Positions 5,183-35,678 of a DNA stretch of 46,395 nucleotides are shown here, in pieces; the first letter of the stretch is position 1, and every line of letters starts with the position of its first letter. This stretch comes from a virus. The stretch lies in IMG/VR virus record IMGVR_UViG_3300031841_003377, positions 1 through 46,395 of that record; one strand, 5' to 3'. Under the pieces are notes generated by a model that ran no database searches, had not been told where the DNA came from, and was given only the letters and a program-made list of their open reading frames with translations. Both the position numbers and the translations under genes were made by a program.

Positions 5183-5191
5183 TATAAATAT
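5183..5191 (-). promoter_or_regulatory. ATATTTATA late-type element before the 394-residue fibre gene
   Basis: Exact nonamer on the coding strand, 6 nt before the ATG at 5176, the closest spacing of the exact copies in this window. No ribosome site lies between. Confidence 0.5.
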
Positions 5192-7373: not shown

Positions 7374-9167
7374 TTAGATAGTGTCGAGACCAGCAACATG
7401 GATCTTTCCATAGAACTCTGGTCTGACCATCTTCTTGGCGTAACGAGTCATTACACCCTTTCTTGGGGTGAAGTTGGTTGGATCGTACACCAATGGAGTC
7501 ATAATAAGTGGGATGTATGGAGCATAAACAGCACCAGTTTCAAGGAACTGTGTTCCTCTGTATCCCATCAAGATTGTATTCTCGGTCATGTATGGGTTCT
7601 TGTAAACTTGGAATCTATTGTTAATAGCACCAACTTTCTGAACACCCATTGCAAATTGCATCTTATCACCGTCCGTATCAGCTGCATATCCTGGAATAGA
7701 TTCGAGGATAGTTGCAACAGTTGGAGAACAAACTAAGAAGTTTGCACCGCCACGGAGGGTCAACTGATGAATCTTATTGCTAACCTTCTGGATCTTAGTT
7801 CCTAAAGTTTGGAACCAAGTACCTTGGTTGTATGCTTGAGCAGTTGCATTAGACTGAACGAAGCTGTTCGTTCCGCCGTCAAACTCAAAACCAATCTTAG
7901 CATTCCAACGCTCTGTTGTCTGAGCATTCTGGATCAACATGTCTAAAATTTCCAAGTCAATTTCTTGAGAAACGTACTCAGATAACATGCTAGTCAATTC
8001 TGCTTCAGCATCAATGCTATGGTATGCATTAAGGTCTTGAGCGAACTCAGGCGACCAAACAGCCTTCAACTTACGAGTCTTAGCAACAATTGCCTCACTT
8101 CTCATTTCCAGATTGATTTCTGGAATATCTAATGAGTTGTCAGCATCGTTAGTGTATGCAGGATCTGCAGTAGCCTCAAAGTCACCTCTGGTCTTATCCG
8201 TTGGCTGCTTATGGTATGCAACTTCTACAACACCGCCGGCACTAAATACTTTAGGAACTGAATCAGTCTCTACCAAGAACAATACTACTTCGGTACTAGC
8301 AAGATCAGTTGAGGCAGCGTCCAATGTAATTGTGCGCGTAAATTCTGGAACGACGGTAGTGATACCAGAACCAGAAACGTTAAACGCTCTAACACCGTTC
8401 AAATCAGCATTACATGTACCATCGGTACCATCCGTATCCAACTCACCAGCTTTAACAGCAAGAACTTGATATACTTTGCTATTAGCAACTGCAGAAGCAG
8501 AGAATTCAGAATTAAAGTTAGTGTAACGATTTAATTGTTCTCCGGTCAACTTAGCTGCGCCTTCCGTGAATTTGTTAGTGAAAGGATCATATGAGCCGCT
8601 CAAGATATCAGTAATATTAACTAATACTTTGTTAGTATCGTTAATAGTGTATCCGAAACGACCTGAACCGTACAAACCTTCGGTTGCAGTAGCACCAGCT
8701 GGTACATCAGTACCAGCACCGCCGGCATTAGTAATACCAAACACAGAACCTGCTTGTGAAGCTCTATTAGTTTCGCCACTTACAAAATCGTTACCAGTTG
8801 CAGTATTGAAGCCATTTGTTCCTTGTGCAGTACCGTACTTAAAGTCTAAGTAGAATACCAGTCCGGAAGGAAGATTCATTGGCTGAACTGAAACGAAGTC
8901 TTTTGCAGCAATTTCAGCAAAAATTCTACGAACCAATGGGAGGGCAACACCAGCCCACTGCTCGTCAGATGCGCCAGTACCGGTCTTGTTAACTTCCGAT
9001 ACCAACTGCTTGGCTTGGTTCTCTAAAAGAACCGCCATGCCTTTTCTTTCAACCTCGGAATCCAAACCTTCCAAAAGGCCGGTCTTTTCCCACTTGTTTT
9101 CCAAGAGGACTGCTGCGGCATTCTGGTTAGCTTGTGCTTCGCGAGGTAATAAGGAATTTACATTCAT
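7374..9167 (-). CDS. gp23: Major capsid protein, gp23-type
   Basis: 597 residues. The N-terminal prodomain (KWEKTGLLEGLDSEVERKG, then MAVLLENQAKQL) aligns with the T4 gp23 head peptide. The phrase VQPMNLPSGLVFYLDFKYG around residues 95-115 matches the conserved gp23 start of the mature fold. Later SPEFAQDLNAYHSIDAEAEL and the closing ARYAKKMVRPEFYGKIHV are also characteristic. gp23 forms the hexamers of the prolate head after cleavage of the prodomain by gp21, encoded at 17142-17747. Candidate cleavage contexts of the L/I-x-E type (LLEG) are present, but the exact site is not determined here. AAAGGA precedes the ATG, 16 nt after gp22, and a strong terminator follows. Confidence 0.97.
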   Translation of the reverse strand: MNVNSLLPREAQANQNAAAVLLENKWEKTGLLEGLDSEVERKGMAVLLENQAKQLVSEVNKTGTGASDEQWAGVALPLVRRIFAEIAAKDFVSVQPMNLPSGLVFYLDFKYGTAQGTNGFNTATGNDFVSGETNRASQAGSVFGITNAGGAGTDVPAGATATEGLYGSGRFGYTINDTNKVLVNITDILSGSYDPFTNKFTEGAAKLTGEQLNRYTNFNSEFSASAVANSKVYQVLAVKAGELDTDGTDGTCNADLNGVRAFNVSGSGITTVVPEFTRTITLDAASTDLASTEVVLFLVETDSVPKVFSAGGVVEVAYHKQPTDKTRGDFEATADPAYTNDADNSLDIPEINLEMRSEAIVAKTRKLKAVWSPEFAQDLNAYHSIDAEAELTSMLSEYVSQEIDLEILDMLIQNAQTTERWNAKIGFEFDGGTNSFVQSNATAQAYNQGTWFQTLGTKIQKVSNKIHQLTLRGGANFLVCSPTVATILESIPGYAADTDGDKMQFAMGVQKVGAINNRFQVYKNPYMTENTILMGYRGTQFLETGAVYAPYIPLIMTPLVYDPTNFTPRKGVMTRYAKKMVRPEFYGKIHVAGLDTI

Positions 9168-9183: not shown

Positions 9184-10197
9184 TTAGAGATTAGCTAACT
9201 TCTTCCAACGAGCTGCTAAATCATTGCCTTCACTTAAGACTTGCTTACGTGGTGCAGTTGACTTACCGGCTGGCTTCGAAGCATAGCTTTCTTTGATTTG
9301 TCTTTTTGTCTTATTCAATGAGAAGCCTTCAGCCAATGTAGAGTAAATCAACTTAACTTCGCGCAAGTTACCTGCACGATCAAAGTTTTCAATTACCTTC
9401 ATCTTTTGAGACTCATTCAAAGAATAATTTCTAAACAACTTGTTAGAGAACAACAATTTTGCATTGAGAAGATTAACTTCATTGATCTTAGACTTCAAGA
9501 ACTTGATGACATCGTAAGCTTCTTTCAACTCTTCGTCTTTAGCTTCGTCAACTTTTTCGTCTTCGCCTTCGTCCATTTTTTCGTCTTCACCTTCGTCCAT
9601 GTCTTCTTCCTCACGAAGAGCTTTGATAATTTCGTCTAAAGAGATATCTTCATCCATATCTTCTTTTTCGCCTTCATCAACTTTTTCCTCTTCTTCGGTC
9701 AAATCACCTTCTCCAGGATCTTCAGTTTTAGATGCACCCATGTCGACTTTGTTGTCACCTGCGCCAATGCCGGAATCGTCTAAGTTCTCTTCAAGCTCAT
9801 CTTCAAGTTCCTTGATAATAGCTTCGAGTTCTAAATCTTCTTCCATGTCATCACCGCCCATTTCATCCATGTCACCATGTTCGCCTTCTTCCATATCACC
9901 ATGCTCGCCTTCTTCCATATCAGATCCGTAGTCGCCTTCATCCATGTCTTCTTCCTCAGCCATTGGCTCTTCAGCAGGAGCAGGTGCTTCAGCACCAGCA
10001 GCAGCATCCATACCATCGGTATTGGTTTCAACAGGATCTTCGGCTTCTTCCATCTCTTCTTCTTCAGAAATCTTTGCAGATAACATGCTTTGAAGTCTTG
10101 GGGTGAATGCTTCTTCTAATGCAATCTTTGCATTTGCTAACGCGGTTTCTCTAACAGCTTTTGCGTCCGCGATAGCCTCTTTTAAGAGATCATTCAT
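9184..10197 (-). CDS. gp22: Prohead core scaffolding protein, gp22-type
   Basis: 337 residues and extremely acidic. A short helical head (MNDLLKEAIADAKAVRETAL) is followed by roughly 170 residues dominated by Glu/Asp/Met/Gly with local repeats (MEEGEHGD twice, MDEGEDEK twice). The C-terminal part is a helical, more basic domain ending NDLAARWKKLANL. Composition, size, and position directly before gp23 identify the T4-type scaffold core that is assembled inside the prohead and later degraded by gp21. It carries the best ribosome site in the window (AGGAGG) and a 190-nt leader with three inverted repeats, so high expression is expected. The acidic repeats are unusually long compared with T4 gp22 (269 residues). 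Confidence 0.9.
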   Translation of the reverse strand: MNDLLKEAIADAKAVRETALANAKIALEEAFTPRLQSMLSAKISEEEEMEEAEDPVETNTDGMDAAAGAEAPAPAEEPMAEEEDMDEGDYGSDMEEGEHGDMEEGEHGDMDEMGGDDMEEDLELEAIIKELEDELEENLDDSGIGAGDNKVDMGASKTEDPGEGDLTEEEEKVDEGEKEDMDEDISLDEIIKALREEEDMDEGEDEKMDEGEDEKVDEAKDEELKEAYDVIKFLKSKINEVNLLNAKLLFSNKLFRNYSLNESQKMKVIENFDRAGNLREVKLIYSTLAEGFSLNKTKRQIKESYASKPAGKSTAPRKQVLSEGNDLAARWKKLANL

Positions 10198-11703: not shown

Positions 11704-12087
11704 TTAACGTTTACCGCCGTCATATGCAACGGCATGGCCCTCTTCAATAAGTTGTTTATTTACATTTGTAAGTGTGATAGGTGTATCAGATACTACTGGA
11801 GACAATGACTCTATAAATATAGTACCTAAGGCACGTCCATACTTACCAACTCCACTTACTTGTATTACACATTCGTTTTTATTAAACTCTAACATTTCAA
11901 TAAGACGTTCTTTTGCAGCTAACCCACGTTTCTTTTCTTCTAAATCACGTGTTCTCGTTTCCGGCGTATTAATACCTTCTAATCGAACTCGTATCTTTTT
12001 CCAGGTATGAAATCCTAGATCAATTGTGCAATCGACCGTATCGCCATCAACGACTCGATCGACTACTGCATTATATTCATACATCAT
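11704..12087 (-). CDS. Staphylococcal nuclease-like (thermonuclease) protein
   Basis: 127 residues. VVDGDTVDCTI (residues 12-22) provides the metal-site DGDT. RVRLEGINTPE (33-43) contains Arg35 and Glu43, which coincide in number with the catalytic pair of S. aureus nuclease. GKYGRALG (81-88) supplies the second catalytic Arg. All key residues of the SNase fold are therefore present, so it should be a Ca-dependent nuclease. There is no signal peptide, so it would act in the cytoplasm, for example on host DNA or RNA. It overlaps the preceding membrane-protein gene by ATGA, indicating coupling. One extra copy of the late-type nonamer lies inside it at 11812-11820, with unknown meaning. Confidence 0.9.
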   Translation of the reverse strand: MMYEYNAVVDRVVDGDTVDCTIDLGFHTWKKIRVRLEGINTPETRTRDLEEKKRGLAAKERLIEMLEFNKNECVIQVSGVGKYGRALGTIFIESLSPVVSDTPITLTNVNKQLIEEGHAVAYDGGKR

Positions 12088-12308
12088 TCTTCCTTTTTAC
12101 CAGCAAATTTTTCTAAGCCGGCAATTCCGAAGCATCCTAAAACTATTAATGTAAATGAATCGTATACAAATTCGTTGATAACTAAATCTTGTCCGGACCA
12201 GCCTGAAGCTAAGTCTGCTACCATAATTACGCACATGATCAAGAATGCGATAAATCCTACTATCGTTTTTTCATTCCAATCATTGTTATTCTTAAAAATT
12301 TCCCACAT
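12084..12308 (-). CDS. Small two-helix membrane protein
   Basis: 74 residues. A short polar N-terminus (MWEIFKNNNDWNEK) is followed by a hydrophobic segment (TIVGFIAFLIMCVIMVADL), a short loop, and a second one (FTLIVLGCFGIAGLEKFAG) with a basic tail KKEE. This predicts two membrane spans in the inner membrane. Small proteins like this can be holin-like or accessory to envelope genes, but a convincing holin exists elsewhere (23418-23813). AGGAAAAG precedes the ATG, 11 nt after the stop of the outer-membrane candidate, suggesting cotranscription with the export cassette. Confidence 0.65.
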   Translation of the reverse strand: MWEIFKNNNDWNEKTIVGFIAFLIMCVIMVADLASGWSGQDLVINEFVYDSFTLIVLGCFGIAGLEKFAGKKEE

Positions 12309-12319
12309 GTCTTTTCCTA

Positions 12320-13354
12320 TTAAATTATTCTATAGTTGAATCCGATTGAGAAGTCGTGCCAATTTCTATCCCAGTATTTGTGGTATTTAGCTTCACTAAA
12401 GACTCCTAATCGTTTGTTGATTTGCCATCCAAATATTATACCAGCAGTATAGTCTAACCATTGGTTACCTTCCACAAAGTTGTTGTAAGAGTATTCATTG
12501 TTAGAATTAACATGTAATGGCAAAACACTTGCCCATGAATGAAACCATAATGTTTTAGTATAGTGATAGTAGTCATATCCTAATACTAAAGAATAGTTCC
12601 ATTGATTGGGCAACAATGATCTTTCTTGATCTACATACTCGCTTAATACTTCTGGCAATGCTACTGCATTCCATACAATGTTATTATCAGCAACTACATC
12701 TCCGTTAGGATTTAGCCACTCGCCTTCAAAGTTAGTTGTATAACCTTGTTCTAATGCTACATTAGTAAAATCAGCTCCCGCCAATCCTACTAAAGGGTCA
12801 AATCCGTATGGTTCTGAAAAGCGCTGAACTAATCCTGTATTCAATGAAAACTTCTTACCTAGATTGTATCTATAACGTTGAGATGCTTCATAATACTTAA
12901 GATCTGCAAAGCCATCTTGCACATATTCCATTTTCAAAATCCAATGATCATGTACATATCTAAGGAAGTGTTGCTGATCGACAAAGTAGTTACCCTGTTG
13001 TCTTTTGTAGTCAAACTCAAATAAGTATTCTAATCCTTCTACATTACCTACAGTAGCAGCGTCTGAAACAGAAGTTTCGGTACCGTCATAAAAGTAGTTC
13101 TTTCTGTTTTCATAATCCAAACGTGCAATTTTTCTAACACCAAAGGCTAATGTATAATCAAATGGAGTTGAAATAATTTCTTCTTCCAATATGCCAGATG
13201 ACGGGTTGATAGAATATACACTAATATCTGCTAACGAGTTGTTACCAGTAACTGCAGTATAGAAAGTAGCAAATTTAAGTTGTTTTTGTACAAACTGTGC
13301 TTGCGCTGTTAAAGAACAAGTTGCTACTAATAGTATAGCTAATAATTTTTTCAT
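12320..13354 (-). CDS. Predicted outer-membrane beta-barrel protein
   Basis: 344 residues. The first 20 (MKKLLAILLVATCSLTAQAQ) are a textbook signal peptide of the type seen in Bacteroidota. The mature part is rich in alternating aromatic/hydrophobic and polar residues (for example HFLRYVHDHWILKMEYVQDG, YRYNLGKKFSLNTGLVQRF, LDYTAGIIFGWQINKRLGV) and ends in a strand FSIGFNYRII, as expected for an outer-membrane barrel. I cannot place it in PorP/SprF or another named family. It begins on the ATGA of the type IX cargo gene, so translation is coupled. Coupling to a cargo is reminiscent of SprB/SprF-type pairs, but the cargo CTD here is the other (type A) kind. It could be a phage-encoded surface modifier. 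Confidence 0.7.
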   Translation of the reverse strand: MKKLLAILLVATCSLTAQAQFVQKQLKFATFYTAVTGNNSLADISVYSINPSSGILEEEIISTPFDYTLAFGVRKIARLDYENRKNYFYDGTETSVSDAATVGNVEGLEYLFEFDYKRQQGNYFVDQQHFLRYVHDHWILKMEYVQDGFADLKYYEASQRYRYNLGKKFSLNTGLVQRFSEPYGFDPLVGLAGADFTNVALEQGYTTNFEGEWLNPNGDVVADNNIVWNAVALPEVLSEYVDQERSLLPNQWNYSLVLGYDYYHYTKTLWFHSWASVLPLHVNSNNEYSYNNFVEGNQWLDYTAGIIFGWQINKRLGVFSEAKYHKYWDRNWHDFSIGFNYRII

Positions 13355-16300
13355 TGTTTGATAATTTTTTTAGTGAACTGAAGATCGTTATGAGTAAGTA
13401 TCAAGTTATAAACTCCGCCTTCGAATTTACTCATATCAATTTGTCTTGCATTAGGTTGTTGTAATACAGGTTGCCCCATTGCATTATATAACGTTGCACT
13501 AACATTTAAGTTACTTGCAATAGTAATATTATCTTTAGTTGGATTCGGAAACACAATAATTTGTGTCTCGCCGTACTCTTGTACATTTGTTACGGTATTT
13601 TCATCACAGTAGTTGTACAATTCTTGGCATCCATCTGCCCATTCATTATTGCAGCATGTTGGGCTAACATCTATAACCCATGCAAAACACTCGCTACCTA
13701 AATCTAATAAATTATATGCTTCAACTACCGGATCAATGCAATTAGCATAAACAGTTTCGCACGTGCCGTTATCTGTATTAGCTTCTTCATCATAGTTAGC
13801 AGCTTGAGGATCAGTACAACCGTATATGAATTCTTCACAGCTAAAGTCCTCTGTATTAGCCTCGGGGTCATAATTGTATGCGCTAGGGTCTGTACAGCCC
13901 TCTATGATAGGTATACAGGTGCCATTATCAACAGTTGCTAGCTCATTATAATTAAATGCTAATGAATCCGTACAACCATATATTGGCAGTATACAACTAA
14001 AGTCATCTACGTTAGCCAATTCATTATAATTAAGTGCTTCTGGATTTGTACATCCTTCAACTATTTCTATACATGTACCATTATCAATGTTTGCATTTAA
14101 ATCATAGTTTAAAGCAGTTTCATCAGTACATCCGTATATTGGTAGAATGCAGCTCAAGTCATCTACGTTCGCGTCTGGGTCAAAGTTTATTGCATCTGGA
14201 TTCATACATCCTTCTATAACAGGGATACATGTTCCGTTGTCAGTCGTTGCCAATTCATTGTAATTGAATGCAGTAGTATCAGTACATCCGTATATTGGCA
14301 AATCACATTCAAAGTTATTAACGTTAGCTAATGGATCAAAGTTAAGTGCTAATGGATCCATACACCCTTCTACAACAGGCTCACAAGAACTATTATCTAC
14401 GTTAGCTAATTCATTATAATTGAATGCAGTAGGATCGGTACACCCGTATATAGCATCTATACACGATCCATCTTCTACATTTGCATCAGCATTATAATTT
14501 AATGCACTTGCATCAGTACATCCGACTACTATAGGAATACATGCTCCATTATCTACATTTGCTAATGGATCATAGTTAGTTGAATTAGTTTCGGTACATC
14601 CAAAGACTGCCAATGTCTGACAATCGCCGTTATCAAAATCAGCTTCAAATCCTTGTGTATAATATTCTAAATATCCGGCTTGCATACACCCGGGTGCATA
14701 ATAACAACTTTCATCGTCCCAGTTAGCTTGGTCATTATAATTAACAGCTGCGGCATCAGTACAGCCGTTTATAAATGGTACACATGTATTACCGCAATAG
14801 AGATCGACCTCATAAGCATACCAGCCACTTTCCCCGGTAAATGGAATAGCACTAAAGAAAGGAACGTTGATCATAACTTCGCCTTCTGGGTTAGTTAATG
14901 TAAATCCACATTGTTGAATTGTGTTAACTGATTGAGGTGTTATGAAAAAGTATAAGTAAGTTTTTTTAGTAGCATCTAATGTAACTGAAAAGCTTAATTC
15001 GGTACCGTCATTAGGACCCATTTGATATAAAGGAGAATTATACCATAATTGATAAATACCTAAAGAACTACCAAACCAGCCGTCGCCGACGCCATCAGTT
15101 ATTGTCAAAGTATAATCACAAACTGCTATAACATCTTCTGTATTTGCTTCCGGATTCCAGTTAAATGCTGTTTCATCTAAACATCCTAATACAACGGGAG
15201 TTAAACAGCTACCATTATCAATTTCTGCTTCGGAGTTAAATTCTGTAAAGTTAGGATCAGTACAACCTTCTAATAATACGACGCCGTCACATGTTGCTGG
15301 AGTAAATTGATCTGAGCCTCCTAGATATCCATAATTTCCATCCGGAAACTCATCTTGAAGATTATATAATTCATTTCCGTTACAATCTAAAATTACTATA
15401 TTGCCATTAACAAGATTAGGGTTATTAGTAGCACATGGACCGCACAACCCATCTCCATACGAATCTTCTATTACAATATCATATTGTTGATCAACAGGTA
15501 CGCATGTTGCTGTTGATATCGGAATACCCGGGGCGGCTCCTGCATAAGTACCTACGGGGGCAGATGCTACAGCGCCTAAATCGCCATATAAAATCCAACT
15601 TGTTTCAGCACCAAAATTATCAGGAGTTACTATAACTTCGACTAAAGTTTGGCCTTCAACACATTCTACTGTTTGAGATATGCAAGAGCCGTCGTCAAAA
15701 TTAGCCCATGGGTTCCAGTTAAGAGCGCTCGGGTCCGAACAGCCCGGAATGGCACCACATGGTAAGCATGATTCCCAACAGTAAGAAGGAAGAACTATTT
15801 CATCTTCCTGCGTTATATTCAATGTCCTATTTACAAACCCATTTCCGTCAAATAGGAAGCATGATCCTGCGCTAATACCTACTGGCAGTTCTTGTATATC
15901 AGGAGTATTAAAATCTGCAAATTTCCATAAATGATTTCCTAATGGTACTTCAACTTCTAGAAACCATTCATCATCTTCATCATAACTCATTGGAAGTACT
16001 TGCCAGCCATTCCAACTACCTAATACACCAGGCGTTTCTATAGTAGGAGGAGCGTTAGCTAAATCTACTCTAAATAAAACATTTGCAGTCGGCGGTGTAA
16101 AAATACAAGGATCTAAAGTAAAAGTATATTCTGCAACAGAATCTCCGAACTCTAAATCTTCAACTACGAGTCCTGTACAGTTATTTTCTAATGTAAAATA
16201 ACCAGCACCAAAGCCGCAACAAATGCCGTCGCCAAACGTATCTGTAATAGTAAAAGTATATTCTACCCCAGATTCCAAAAACAAAGTTTGTTCTGCAGTA

Positions 16301-16482
16301 CCGTTTACATATTCTTGAAATCCGTAGCCCGGACTAGTATATACAGTATCAGTGTCTTGGGTAACAACCCAGGCCGTCTCATTCGGATACTGGTCAAATT
16401 GTATAAAAAGGTCTAAATATGTTGGCTGGGCAGCACATGTTAGACCTAATAAAAATAGGATTGGGGTTAGTATTTGTTTCAT
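13351..16482 (-). CDS. Large cysteine-rich repeat protein with type IX secretion C-terminal domain
   Basis: 1043 residues. Signal peptide MKQILTPILFLLGLTCAAQ. Residues 20-240 contain a beta domain with DTFGDGICCGFG and a starch-binding-like Ig segment (FRVDLANAPP...GVLGSWNGW). Further DxxGDG modules follow (DSYGDGLCG, DGVGDGWFG). About 16 copies of a GCxDPxAxNYxxxANxDxxSC module are present. The last 11 form an uninterrupted 26-residue tandem array at residues 628-908, each with two cysteines. Residues 977-1043 (VFPNPTKDN ... GGVYNLILTHND ... KKIIKQ) are a type A Por-secretion sorting domain. It should cross the inner membrane by Sec and be placed on the cell surface by the host type IX system. 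It overlaps both neighbours (TAATG, ATGA). Confidence 0.85.
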   Translation of the reverse strand: MKQILTPILFLLGLTCAAQPTYLDLFIQFDQYPNETAWVVTQDTDTVYTSPGYGFQEYVNGTAEQTLFLESGVEYTFTITDTFGDGICCGFGAGYFTLENNCTGLVVEDLEFGDSVAEYTFTLDPCIFTPPTANVLFRVDLANAPPTIETPGVLGSWNGWQVLPMSYDEDDEWFLEVEVPLGNHLWKFADFNTPDIQELPVGISAGSCFLFDGNGFVNRTLNITQEDEIVLPSYCWESCLPCGAIPGCSDPSALNWNPWANFDDGSCISQTVECVEGQTLVEVIVTPDNFGAETSWILYGDLGAVASAPVGTYAGAAPGIPISTATCVPVDQQYDIVIEDSYGDGLCGPCATNNPNLVNGNIVILDCNGNELYNLQDEFPDGNYGYLGGSDQFTPATCDGVVLLEGCTDPNFTEFNSEAEIDNGSCLTPVVLGCLDETAFNWNPEANTEDVIAVCDYTLTITDGVGDGWFGSSLGIYQLWYNSPLYQMGPNDGTELSFSVTLDATKKTYLYFFITPQSVNTIQQCGFTLTNPEGEVMINVPFFSAIPFTGESGWYAYEVDLYCGNTCVPFINGCTDAAAVNYNDQANWDDESCYYAPGCMQAGYLEYYTQGFEADFDNGDCQTLAVFGCTETNSTNYDPLANVDNGACIPIVVGCTDASALNYNADANVEDGSCIDAIYGCTDPTAFNYNELANVDNSSCEPVVEGCMDPLALNFDPLANVNNFECDLPIYGCTDTTAFNYNELATTDNGTCIPVIEGCMNPDAINFDPDANVDDLSCILPIYGCTDETALNYDLNANIDNGTCIEIVEGCTNPEALNYNELANVDDFSCILPIYGCTDSLAFNYNELATVDNGTCIPIIEGCTDPSAYNYDPEANTEDFSCEEFIYGCTDPQAANYDEEANTDNGTCETVYANCIDPVVEAYNLLDLGSECFAWVIDVSPTCCNNEWADGCQELYNYCDENTVTNVQEYGETQIIVFPNPTKDNITIASNLNVSATLYNAMGQPVLQQPNARQIDMSKFEGGVYNLILTHNDLQFTKKIIKQ
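13759..14601 (-). repeat. 78-bp coding tandem repeat array (11 units)
   Basis: Eleven direct repeats of 26 codons, from the first GC of unit 1 at 14601 to the last Cys codon ending at 13759 (843 nt, 281 codons). Adjacent units alternate between two types, one ending DDFSC/DDLSC and one ending DNGTC, so a 156-bp higher-order doublet is visible over several units. Divergence among units is mostly silent or conservative, which suggests selection on the protein pattern. Confidence 0.85.
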
Positions 16483-16850
16483 TAGAACTTGCTCATTATA
16501 ATATTATCTATAGATTCTTGTACATCTTCTTTCGTAGCTTCCATTGACATCATAATGTTAGCTTGAAATCTTTCAACTTCTTCGCCGTCTTCCATTACTA
16601 AAATTGTAGGAACAACTACTATTTTATACTCATTTGGCAAACTAGGATCAGTAGTAATGTCTACCGTAGTAGTAGTACAATCGGTTAATTCATTTAACCA
16701 TTGAACTTCGTTTGCTGCATTAAATTTTGCATTAAATTGTACAACACATATTCCATCGCCGCACAATTCTGATTTTTCTTCTTCCATCATTGGCATCGTC
16801 ATTGCCGTTCCGATAAGTAAAGCTGCCAATGTCGTAACTAAATATTTCAT
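16482..16850 (-). CDS. Exported thioredoxin-fold protein lacking the usual CxxC
   Basis: 122 residues. Signal peptide MKYLVTTLAALLIGTAMT. The mature part reads as a small thioredoxin fold: CVVQFNAKFNAANEVQWLNEL (first strand and helix), then TTVDITTDPSL, then the cis-Pro strand IVVVPTILVMEDGEEVERF. Where thioredoxins have W-C-G-P-C this protein has F-N-A-A-N, so the normal redox pair is missing. Cysteines occur instead just before the fold (CGDGIC) and later (LTDC). It may be a chaperone-like or atypical disulfide protein for the cysteine-rich cargo, whose start codon overlaps its stop (TAATG). AAAGGA precedes its ATG. Fold assignment is by pattern only. Confidence 0.6.
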   Translation of the reverse strand: MKYLVTTLAALLIGTAMTMPMMEEEKSELCGDGICVVQFNAKFNAANEVQWLNELTDCTTTTVDITTDPSLPNEYKIVVVPTILVMEDGEEVERFQANIMMSMEATKEDVQESIDNIIMSKF

Positions 16851-16854
16851 GATG

Positions 16855-17142
16855 TTAATCCTTTAAATCATCTATCTTTTCTTCTAAACGTATTATGGAT
16901 GATTTGATTTCAGTCACATCTTCTTGTGTACTCATTATTGTTTGTCGGACCAATTGGTCCTTCATATCAAATTCCATCCTAGTTATTTCGGGATCGGGAG
17001 GTAATGGTAACTCTTTTGCTTCTGCAATATCTGCTTGAAGCGTAAACCACATTCCGATTATAGTAGCAAGTGCTACTCCTATACCACCTAAGGTTTTGAC
17101 ACTAACTGAAAAGCTAGTATCTTCATTCAATTCTTTTGCCAT
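16855..17142 (-). CDS. Small membrane-anchored coiled-coil protein
   Basis: 95 residues. After a polar start (MAKELNEDTSFSVSVKTLG) a single hydrophobic span (GIGVALATIIGMWFTLQADI) is followed by a Pro-rich joint (ELPLPPDPE) and a C-terminal coiled coil (VTEIKSSIIRLEEKIDDLKD). This layout resembles inner-membrane spanin-like or holin-accessory proteins, but there is no outer-membrane partner that I can identify. The ATG overlaps the gp21 stop (TAATG) with GGGAG upstream. Function unknown; a role in the envelope or lysis is plausible. Confidence 0.6.
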   Translation of the reverse strand: MAKELNEDTSFSVSVKTLGGIGVALATIIGMWFTLQADIAEAKELPLPPDPEITRMEFDMKDQLVRQTIMSTQEDVTEIKSSIIRLEEKIDDLKD

Positions 17143-17747
17143 TAGAACTCCCTAATAATGTCCGTAATAATACGATCAATATTGTTGTATTTGTTATCAA
17201 CAACCTTATTAACTGATTCATTCACGGGCGAAAGGAATGCTCCATGTGTAGACGGATTTGATACAAAATCAAATGCAATTAATTCAAAATCGGGCTGTAC
17301 TTCTAATGTACCTTCTCCCTCTTTCATAACTTCTTTAACGGAGCCCATACCCCGTGATGATATGCCAAGCTTGATGCCTGACTTAAATAATTCTTTTAAT
17401 ATATTGCCGGACGGTGTAGAAAGTACTTCAACAGTACCAACTAAGTCATCGCCCTTCCATGCCATCTCTAAAACGTTATGCGATACATTGTTTAAGTTAA
17501 CGACACTAGAATCGGGGTGATCTAATTCTCCCAATGCCCTACGCTCTGAAATAAATGACTGAGAATATTTCTTTGCTTCGCGCATTAAGACTTCTTTTGG
17601 ATATACTCTTCCATTTTGATTTTTAGCTTCAGCACGTTGAAGAACTCCCGATACAACTAACTTACCATTGTTTTCAGATAATGATTCATTAATTTGTTGT
17701 GGTGATACTTCAAATAAAGTATAATCTACAAGTAATTTTTTAGACAT
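17142..17747 (-). CDS. gp21: Prohead core protease, gp21-type
   Basis: 201 residues. The N-terminal segment VVSGVLQRAEAKNQNGRVYP, the catalytic-His context ELDHPDS (His77) and the catalytic-Ser context LGISSRG (Ser131) are conserved in T4 gp21 and related herpesvirus-like prohead proteases. The following DFELIAFDFVSNPSTHGAF is also typical. It is packaged in the prohead core, processes capsid and scaffold proteins, then digests itself. AAAGGA lies within the end of the preceding 49-residue gene and the ATG overlaps that gene's stop. In T4 gene 22 follows directly; here about 6.8 kb of accessory genes intervene. Confidence 0.95.
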   Translation of the reverse strand: MSKKLLVDYTLFEVSPQQINESLSENNGKLVVSGVLQRAEAKNQNGRVYPKEVLMREAKKYSQSFISERRALGELDHPDSSVVNLNNVSHNVLEMAWKGDDLVGTVEVLSTPSGNILKELFKSGIKLGISSRGMGSVKEVMKEGEGTLEVQPDFELIAFDFVSNPSTHGAFLSPVNESVNKVVDNKYNNIDRIITDIIREF

Positions 17748-21797: not shown

Positions 21798-21806
21798 TAT
21801 AAATAT
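21798..21806 (-). promoter_or_regulatory. ATATTTATA late-type element before the portal gene
   Basis: Exact nonamer followed by AAAAAAC on the coding strand, overlapping the TGA stop of the terminase gene, 16 nt before the portal ATG. Confidence 0.55.
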
Positions 21807-23417: not shown

Positions 23418-23813
23418 TTACTTACGAGCTTTTTCAATAGTACGGCCAGCAAAGTATGCACCATATACTGTAATTAATAACGTCTGATAAATAGGCTTAT
23501 ATGCATCATTAATCGTAAACTCACCTAAGTTTCCATCAAAGAATGACATTAATACAAAAATGGCTGTTAAAAAAATAAGGACTAATGGACGAATGTTTTT
23601 CGAAAGCCAGTTATCAGACTTCATATCAGCTTCCCAACGAGCCGTTACTTGTTCCTGGGCTTTTGTTTCATGATCGAGTATAAGTTGTTTTAACTTTATC
23701 TTAGCTTCTTTACGTTCTTCATCGGACGTTATTAAATTATCTAATACTCCGCCTACCGATTCTACTAACTTTCCAGCATTTCCTGATAATAAATTTTTTA
23801 ACAACTTAGCCAT
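23418..23813 (-). CDS. Holin of the 3TM superfamily
   Basis: 131 residues. An amphipathic N-terminus (LLKNLLSGNAGKLVESVGGV) and a charged helical segment (DEERKEAKIKLKQLILDHET, then WEADMKSDNWLSKNIRPL) precede one clear hydrophobic span (LVLIFLTAIFVLMSFF). A second membrane-proximal segment (YQTLLITVYGAYFAGRTIEK) follows, with basic C-terminal residues. The W-x-x-D...D-N-W-L-S-K-N-x-R-P pattern is what I know from holins of the 3TM/GTA type. It would permeabilise the inner membrane for lysis. No endolysin is visible in this window. GGAG precedes the ATG, which starts one base after the preceding stop, so it is coupled to head-region genes. Confidence 0.85.
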   Translation of the reverse strand: MAKLLKNLLSGNAGKLVESVGGVLDNLITSDEERKEAKIKLKQLILDHETKAQEQVTARWEADMKSDNWLSKNIRPLVLIFLTAIFVLMSFFDGNLGEFTINDAYKPIYQTLLITVYGAYFAGRTIEKARK

Positions 23814-35669: not shown

Positions 35670-35678
35670 TATAAATAT
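35670..35678 (-). promoter_or_regulatory. ATATTTATA late-type element before the giant tail gene
   Basis: Exact nonamer followed by ACAAAGGG, overlapping the TGA stop of the recombination gene, 14 nt before the ATG at 35655. It marks the switch from DNA metabolism back to structural genes. Confidence 0.6.

Follow-up and report, generated by a model that had tools for sequence, protein, structure and literature searches.

What would a phage gain by placing a large protein on the outside of the cell that it is infecting, and by which apparatus could it do so? This question is raised by the window analysed here, the whole stretch of 46,395 nucleotides, a 46-kb fragment from the virus collection IMG/VR that was judged T4-like from its capsid protein and prohead protease. 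On its minus strand, four genes designated COIL, TRX, CARGO and BARREL (Table 1) encode a membrane-anchored coiled coil, a thioredoxin-fold protein, a long Cys-rich secreted protein ending in a sorting domain of the type IX secretion system (T9SS), and a predicted outer-membrane β-barrel. Bacteroidota, which are a major group in the sea, export proteins mainly through the T9SS. We found that the four genes form a conserved module, and that the module is exchanged between T4-like and crAss-like phages, two unrelated groups in which it may serve to display the cargo on the surface of the infected cell.

Conservation and linkage of the module

The first-pass annotation, made from the letters of the window, had described a phage-borne unit of three genes with touching or overlapping ends beside the prohead protease gene. 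The three open reading frames and their coordinates were exactly as claimed, with an overlap of one base between TRX and CARGO and of 4 bases between CARGO and BARREL, and the phage setting beside the protease gene was supported. The size of the unit had to be revised. The trio stood, but the unit comprises at least four genes, as COIL, which had been missed, lies between the protease gene and TRX, its start overlapping the protease stop by one base. The prohead protease gene is the immediate upstream neighbour of the module in the window and belongs to the same gene run. This linkage was considered as an essential part of the system and was rejected, since most relatives adjoin other genes.

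Scans of IMG/VR gave relatives of TRX in 300 stretches and of COIL in 378, and close barrels in 25 and in 73 loci (L- and G-numbers below denote the related contigs and loci of this analysis); with a broad alignment of the barrel, the number was at least 553. The trio, for which the first-pass annotation had proposed a search in related marine phages, was present in hundreds of these contigs. Local tallies with hidden Markov models (HMMs) located all four genes in 136 of the 205 deduplicated loci. Of the incomplete loci, only L126 extended by more than about 3.5-4.5 kb in both directions, and all others were cut at a contig or locus end. The genes were arranged in three cyclic orders (cargo-barrel-coil-thioredoxin, coil-thioredoxin-cargo-barrel and barrel-coil-thioredoxin-cargo), and the 4-base overlap of cargo and barrel was detected in 83 loci of the gene-order survey.

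The cargo and its sorting domain

Residues 977-1041 of the 1043 residues of CARGO matched PF18962 with 39.4 bits against a cut-off of 27 (E 7.6e-10) and TIGR04183 with 39.1 bits against a cut-off of 23 (E 5.5e-10), demonstrating that the Por-type sorting domain proposed for this protein exceeds both curated cut-offs and is of type A. Among 27 diverse cargos, 24 carried the domain at E≤0.01, and of 20 long viral contigs, 17 gave a match above the cut-off. Signal peptides had been assigned to TRX, CARGO and BARREL, and all three indeed have signal-peptide-like N-termini, as judged by a hydrophobicity rule. The same rule was satisfied by 156 of 159 TRX, 125 of 139 cargo and 174 of 179 barrel homologues, versus 74 of 1006 other neighbouring genes.

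CARGO is Cys-rich, as had been noted, with 56 Cys. The window protein has 14 GCTD repeats, with a period of exactly 26 residues in the main array and two Cys in each 26-residue repeat, while shuffled CARGO sequences contained GCTD 0.035 times on average and once at most. All 136 long cargos shared one to three DxxGDG-motif domains, 4-25 Cys-rich GCTD repeats, a CC-W-C domain (CCW) and the sorting domain; no such repeat architecture was found in host proteins among 80 Bacteroidota loci with similar sorting domains. The glycan-binding character attributed to CARGO was traceable but weak, as the carbohydrate-binding module (CBM) model AMPK1_CBM gave E 0.18 in the window protein, below the cut-off, and CBM_48 was detected in two of 27 relatives, at best with 0.0022. 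No catalytic domain was detected in the 27 diverse cargos. A second, separate secreted cargo, whose sorting domain is of type B (TIGR04131), is encoded by seven of 25 related contigs. In a 96-kb crAss-like contig (L239, G721), Por_Secre_tail matches were located near both ends, at 8027-8236 and 95261-95470, perhaps the same cargo gene appearing twice, at either end of a genome that is circular.

A new family of predicted outer-membrane barrels

The outer-membrane barrel claimed for the 344-residue protein gained support from structure modelling. The model based on 26 diverse relatives had a mean predicted local distance difference test (pLDDT) value of 77 and contained 12 long strands, with residues 183-250 forming a helical insert, and BARREL is accordingly modelled, in prediction, as a closed antiparallel outer-membrane β-barrel with a signal peptide. 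A first model based on 17 close relatives was poor (pLDDT 55) and was not used. The best Foldseek matches were outer-membrane barrels such as NanC, KdgM, FadL and NalP, with TM-scores of up to 0.39 by query length, so that the barrel fold is assigned with moderate confidence; the best viral structure match was A0A516LKJ4 (E 4.8e-22, 23% identity). Sequence searches of Pfam, NCBIfam, PHROGs and PDB gave no match for the family. It is a new barrel family, and may act as a T9SS shuttle that the phage itself provides for cargo of type A.

TRX and COIL

The thioredoxin fold proposed for TRX was weak for the single sequence (7.9e-5, just under the cut-off) and clear at the family level, with PF00085 matched by 29 of 30 members; comparison with solved thioredoxins gave E 5e-5. 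The cis-Pro loop VVVPT was kept. In 165 of 172 distinct TRX sequences, both catalytic Cys were Asn (NxxN in place of CxxC), so that the thioredoxin active site has been replaced family-wide. CxxC was found in none of the 172 sequences, four of which fell outside the pattern used. TRX was considered as a disulfide isomerase for the Cys-rich cargo and was rejected, as a protein that has lost CxxC cannot work as a disulfide enzyme. Judging from its residues, TRX may be an inactive fold serving as a binder or chaperone. In one phage contig, a gene for a canonical thioredoxin (WCGPC, L421:9679-9936) is separated by about 5 kb from that of the redox-dead protein.

COIL has a short N-terminus, one hydrophobic segment (approximately residues 17-35) and a conserved charged coiled-coil-like tail (PEITRMEFDMKDQLVRQTIM), and matched nothing in Pfam or NCBIfam.

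Exchange between phage groups and a possible host link

The module was found in T4-like contigs as well as in contigs with a crAss-like terminase, the latter assigned at 38% identity or more in eight contigs, at 26-29% over most of the length in seven, and more weakly in others. L218 is a T4-like contig whose capsid protein is 70% identical to that of the window, while its barrel is 85% identical to the barrel of a crAss-like phage versus 52% to that of the window. T4-like barrels were located in three places of the tree, and a single clade was rejected (approximately unbiased test, p 3.5e-5). These sequence relationships indicated that the module is exchanged between T4-like and crAss-like phages, which argues for a role in the host cell that is not tied to one virion architecture.

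A cellular origin of the barrel was examined and rejected. A pattern scan of genome contigs was empty, the barrel was absent from all 396 sampled Bacteroidota genomes, and it was detected in only two of 398 Flavobacteriales genomes, both times within phage contigs of those assemblies. The Flavobacteriales matches, obtained with the same alignment, served as a positive control for the empty phylum-wide search; they are also the only link to a host, a weak one that may be due to binning. The first-pass annotation had regarded the presence of the same gene in phages of hosts lacking the T9SS as contrary to its proposal. Such a case was not encountered, as tblastn detected neither the barrel nor COIL in cultured-phage records, nor the barrel in the gut crAss-like phage records searched.

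Proposed anchor end and exposed parts of the cargo

The divergence of the barrel was compared with that of the cargo domains over 32 non-redundant loci by Spearman correlation. Barrel divergence tracked CCW, the cargo part that followed it best (0.79), and the sorting domain (0.63), and did not track two other cargo domains (0.22 and 0.28). This pattern would be expected of an anchored display protein in which a fixed anchor end is combined with exchangeable exposed parts.

Proposed function

The reading that we favour, with an evenly balanced degree of belief, is surface display through the host T9SS, in which the barrel acts as the cargo's own shuttle or anchor and the displayed protein blocks adsorption. 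The cargo would be exported by Sec, its type A sorting domain would be recognised, and it would pass through the T9SS of the host and remain exposed on the infected cell. The barrel in the outer membrane would contact the cargo as its own shuttle or anchor, and the periplasmic, redox-dead TRX together with the membrane-anchored COIL may help the cargo to pass or may hold the complex at the inner membrane. Seen from the outside inwards, the displayed protein would combine variable domains, a stiff stalk of disulfide-rich repeats and a conserved anchor end. We infer that this occurs late in infection, when a coated cell would most likely block adsorption by released progeny and by rival phages; the first-pass annotation's preference for altering the dying cell or protecting progeny over early superinfection exclusion is likewise an inference. 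Speaking for surface display are the type A sorting domain, the conserved linkage of the four genes, the signal-peptide-like N-termini, the barrel model, the exchange between phage groups, the decoupled divergence of the cargo domains, the second cargos of type B and the module-bearing phage contigs in Flavobacteriales assemblies.

Several observations weigh against surface display. Type A cargo is normally served by the general shuttle PorV, so that a barrel of its own is unneeded (PMC12618676). The comparison with PorP/SprF and PorV that the first-pass annotation had proposed for the 344-residue protein gave no kinship by HMM with either family: no PorP/SprF match at E≤1 in Pfam or NCBIfam was obtained among 26 diverse barrels, while for PorV there was no family match, the model has 12 strands versus the 14 of FadL-like barrels, and PorV was outside the 50 best Foldseek matches, in which FadL was only one of many barrels. 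Co-variation of neighbouring genes can arise from linked inheritance alone, which could account for the tracking at the C-terminal end of the cargo, not for the decoupled domains. In the deepest branches (the L126 and G1067 contigs), barrel, COIL and TRX are present and the cargo is not on the available DNA; with the trio retained in this manner, it may have its own job. Finally, in 69 of the 205 loci, a gene for M15 endolysin or three-transmembrane (3TM) holin was no more than four genes away from the module. A broader formulation, held tentatively and somewhat short of even, is that the module is a virus-specific envelope-spanning apparatus consisting of COIL, the redox-dead TRX, the new barrel and a variable T9SS-exported surface protein, which is exchanged as a unit by unrelated phages of Bacteroidota and would take over either the surface of the infected cell or the lysis of its outer membrane. 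Because endolysin and holin genes often adjoin the module, a lysis role is the main rival to surface display, although we consider it unlikely. COIL would act as an i-spanin that reaches the barrel across the periplasm, with TRX, and together they would break the outer membrane, while the cargo caps or triggers the process. The i-spanin-like layout of COIL, with its N-terminal hydrophobic segment and charged coiled-coil-like tail, agrees with this, as do the T4-like contig of G859, where TRX directly adjoins an amidase endolysin gene, and the persistence of the trio in the cargo-less branches. The window itself, however, gave no M15 endolysin match and has its 3TM holin gene (23418-23813) about 6 kb away, no o-spanin was recognised, though no model-based o-spanin search was made, and the known action of spanins has no place for a long secreted protein with a sorting domain and exchangeable domains.

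The remaining explanations concern the fate of the cargo or the origin of the genes. Type A cargos may be cleaved, and are then released or attached. A cargo freed by the host sortase could bind virions, debris or algal surfaces and aid the transmission or aggregation of progeny, for which its repeat-rich, Cys-rich, adhesin-like architecture would be suited; this is rather improbable in our estimate, as the dedicated barrel and the C-terminal co-variation favour anchoring over release. Many T9SS cargos of marine Bacteroidota are directed at polysaccharides, and the weak CBM_48 and AMPK_CBM signals would fit a metabolic or behavioural change in which the cargo helps the infected cell to stick to particles or to bind polysaccharide. 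We give this still less credence, since no catalytic domain was detected in the 27 diverse cargos and since the module, in contrast to auxiliary genes, which vary, is conserved among widely differing phages. That the genes are host genes acquired by chance (morons), with no common function, recalls the single T9SS cargos that occur in other phages (PMC7468147). This explanation is very improbable, being already contradicted by the conserved linkage of four genes across hundreds of contigs and by the near absence of the barrel from the cellular genomes sampled.

If surface display is correct, the sharing and exchange of a T9SS-based module by unrelated phages would imply that the surface of these cells is routinely remodelled by phages. 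The module would offer a way into exclusion and lysis, about which little is known in this group, and a marker for phages of T9SS-bearing hosts.

Features of the window and neighbouring genes

The coordinates of the module and of its neighbours are collected in Table 1. The staphylococcal-nuclease-like gene adjoins the module often, not always, and the gene for the small membrane protein TM is present in only part of the loci. Searches of the window against Rfam and for tRNA genes gave no matches.

Table 1. Positions of the module, its domains and adjoining genes in the window, with type B cargos of related contigs
Feature	Position	Strand	Basis
Prohead core protease, T4-type	17142..17747	minus	PF03420 4.1e-28, phrog_207
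COIL, 95-aa membrane-anchored coiled coil	16855..17142	minus	family members in 158 of the 205 deduplicated loci
TRX, 122-aa thioredoxin-fold protein with signal peptide	16482..16850	minus	thioredoxin matches, NxxN
CARGO, 1043-aa Cys-rich secreted protein	13351..16482	minus	type A T9SS sorting domain
CARGO first exposed domain, residues 20-126, DTFGDGICC motif	16105..16425	minus	alignment
CARGO array, eleven 26-residue GCTDxxAxNY repeats, residues 628-913	13744..14601	minus	repeat count
CARGO CCW domain, residues 915-959, C..AWVIDVSPTCCNNEW..GC	13606..13740	minus	shortly upstream of sorting domain
Por_Secre_tail / TIGR04183 type A sorting domain, CARGO residues 977-1041	13360..13554	minus	HMM
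BARREL, 344-aa predicted 12-strand outer-membrane β-barrel with signal peptide	12320..13354	minus	structure model
TM, 74-aa small membrane protein, holin-like size	12084..12308	minus	in 50 of 205 loci
Staphylococcal-nuclease-like protein	11704..12087	minus	PF00565 3.2e-11, phrog_452; in 35 of 205 loci
Type B second cargos	L015:13212-15299, L020:11451-13178, five further contigs		TIGR04131

The motif ATATTTATA occurs 13 times in the window versus 3.5 expected, a count that no shuffle equalled. The copies are mostly located shortly upstream of genes (minus-strand examples at 2437-2445, 5183-5191, 21798-21806 and 35670-35678), and the reverse complement of the motif contains the T4 late box TATAAATA, so that it is a candidate late-promoter element. 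The closest named relative of the window capsid protein (7374-9167) was that of the cyanobacterial phage Microcystis phage Mel-JY01 (58%), slightly ahead of the capsid protein of Flavobacterium phages 'immuto' (55%). Beside the capsid gene, a very acidic protein of 337 residues (9184-10197) is probably a prohead core or scaffold protein. A 142-aa protein (2445-2873) starts with a short collagen-like GPQG stretch.

In related phages, queuosine-pathway-like genes (QueC, QueD and QueE-like, as judged by eye) are located near the module (L015:10213-13092 and L421:8403-11034), and thyX-like and ribonucleotide-reductase-like genes are also close to it. Many small proteins of L053, L353 and L368 share the terminal motif GPNG(I/V/M)L, and the same contigs carry several paralogues of about 125 aa in tandem.

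Comparison with known systems

The lom/bor and Rz/Rz1 genes of phage lambda represent outer-membrane morons and spanins, envelope proteins encoded near lysis genes. The module resembles them in this placement and differs in its T9SS link and its barrel-cargo pair, neither of which is known for these lambda genes.

Cryophage is reported to encode T9SS cargos of type A, and superinfection exclusion is among the roles suggested for them (Bellas et al. 2020, PMC7468147). The likeness extends to type A sorting domains on phage genes, a presumed use of the host system and the suggested exclusion. The Cryophage cargos described there are single enzyme-like or PA14 proteins (endoglucanase, GH39, PA14) that vary between strains, and no barrel, thioredoxin or coiled-coil partner is reported in the portions considered here, unlike in the module (PMC7468147). 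The crAss-like phages also encode T9SS sorting-domain proteins near head genes; in gut phages they are reported with BACON domains, and no such module is described for them (PMC6949934). The statement in the first-pass annotation that no system of this kind had been described thus did not hold for phage T9SS cargos as such, and stood for the four-gene module, which was undescribed in these two sources as far as considered and was not found in the literature searched, covering few subscription journals or preprints.

Further close parallels are the pairs SprB/SprF and PG1035/PorP, in which an outer-membrane barrel is likewise paired with a T9SS surface protein. Whereas type A substrates are directed to PorV, type B substrates are directed to PorP/SprF barrels, which are commonly encoded directly downstream and serve as shuttle and anchor (PMC12618676, PMC9143113). 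In Flavobacterium johnsoniae, the gene of the cognate barrel is commonly located directly downstream of the cargo gene, and the phage pair has the same layout, with the BARREL gene directly downstream of its cargo. The two arrangements differ in their components, as SprB/SprF and PG1035/PorP combine type B cargo with a PorP/SprF barrel, whereas the phage module combines type A cargo with a barrel of an unrelated family.

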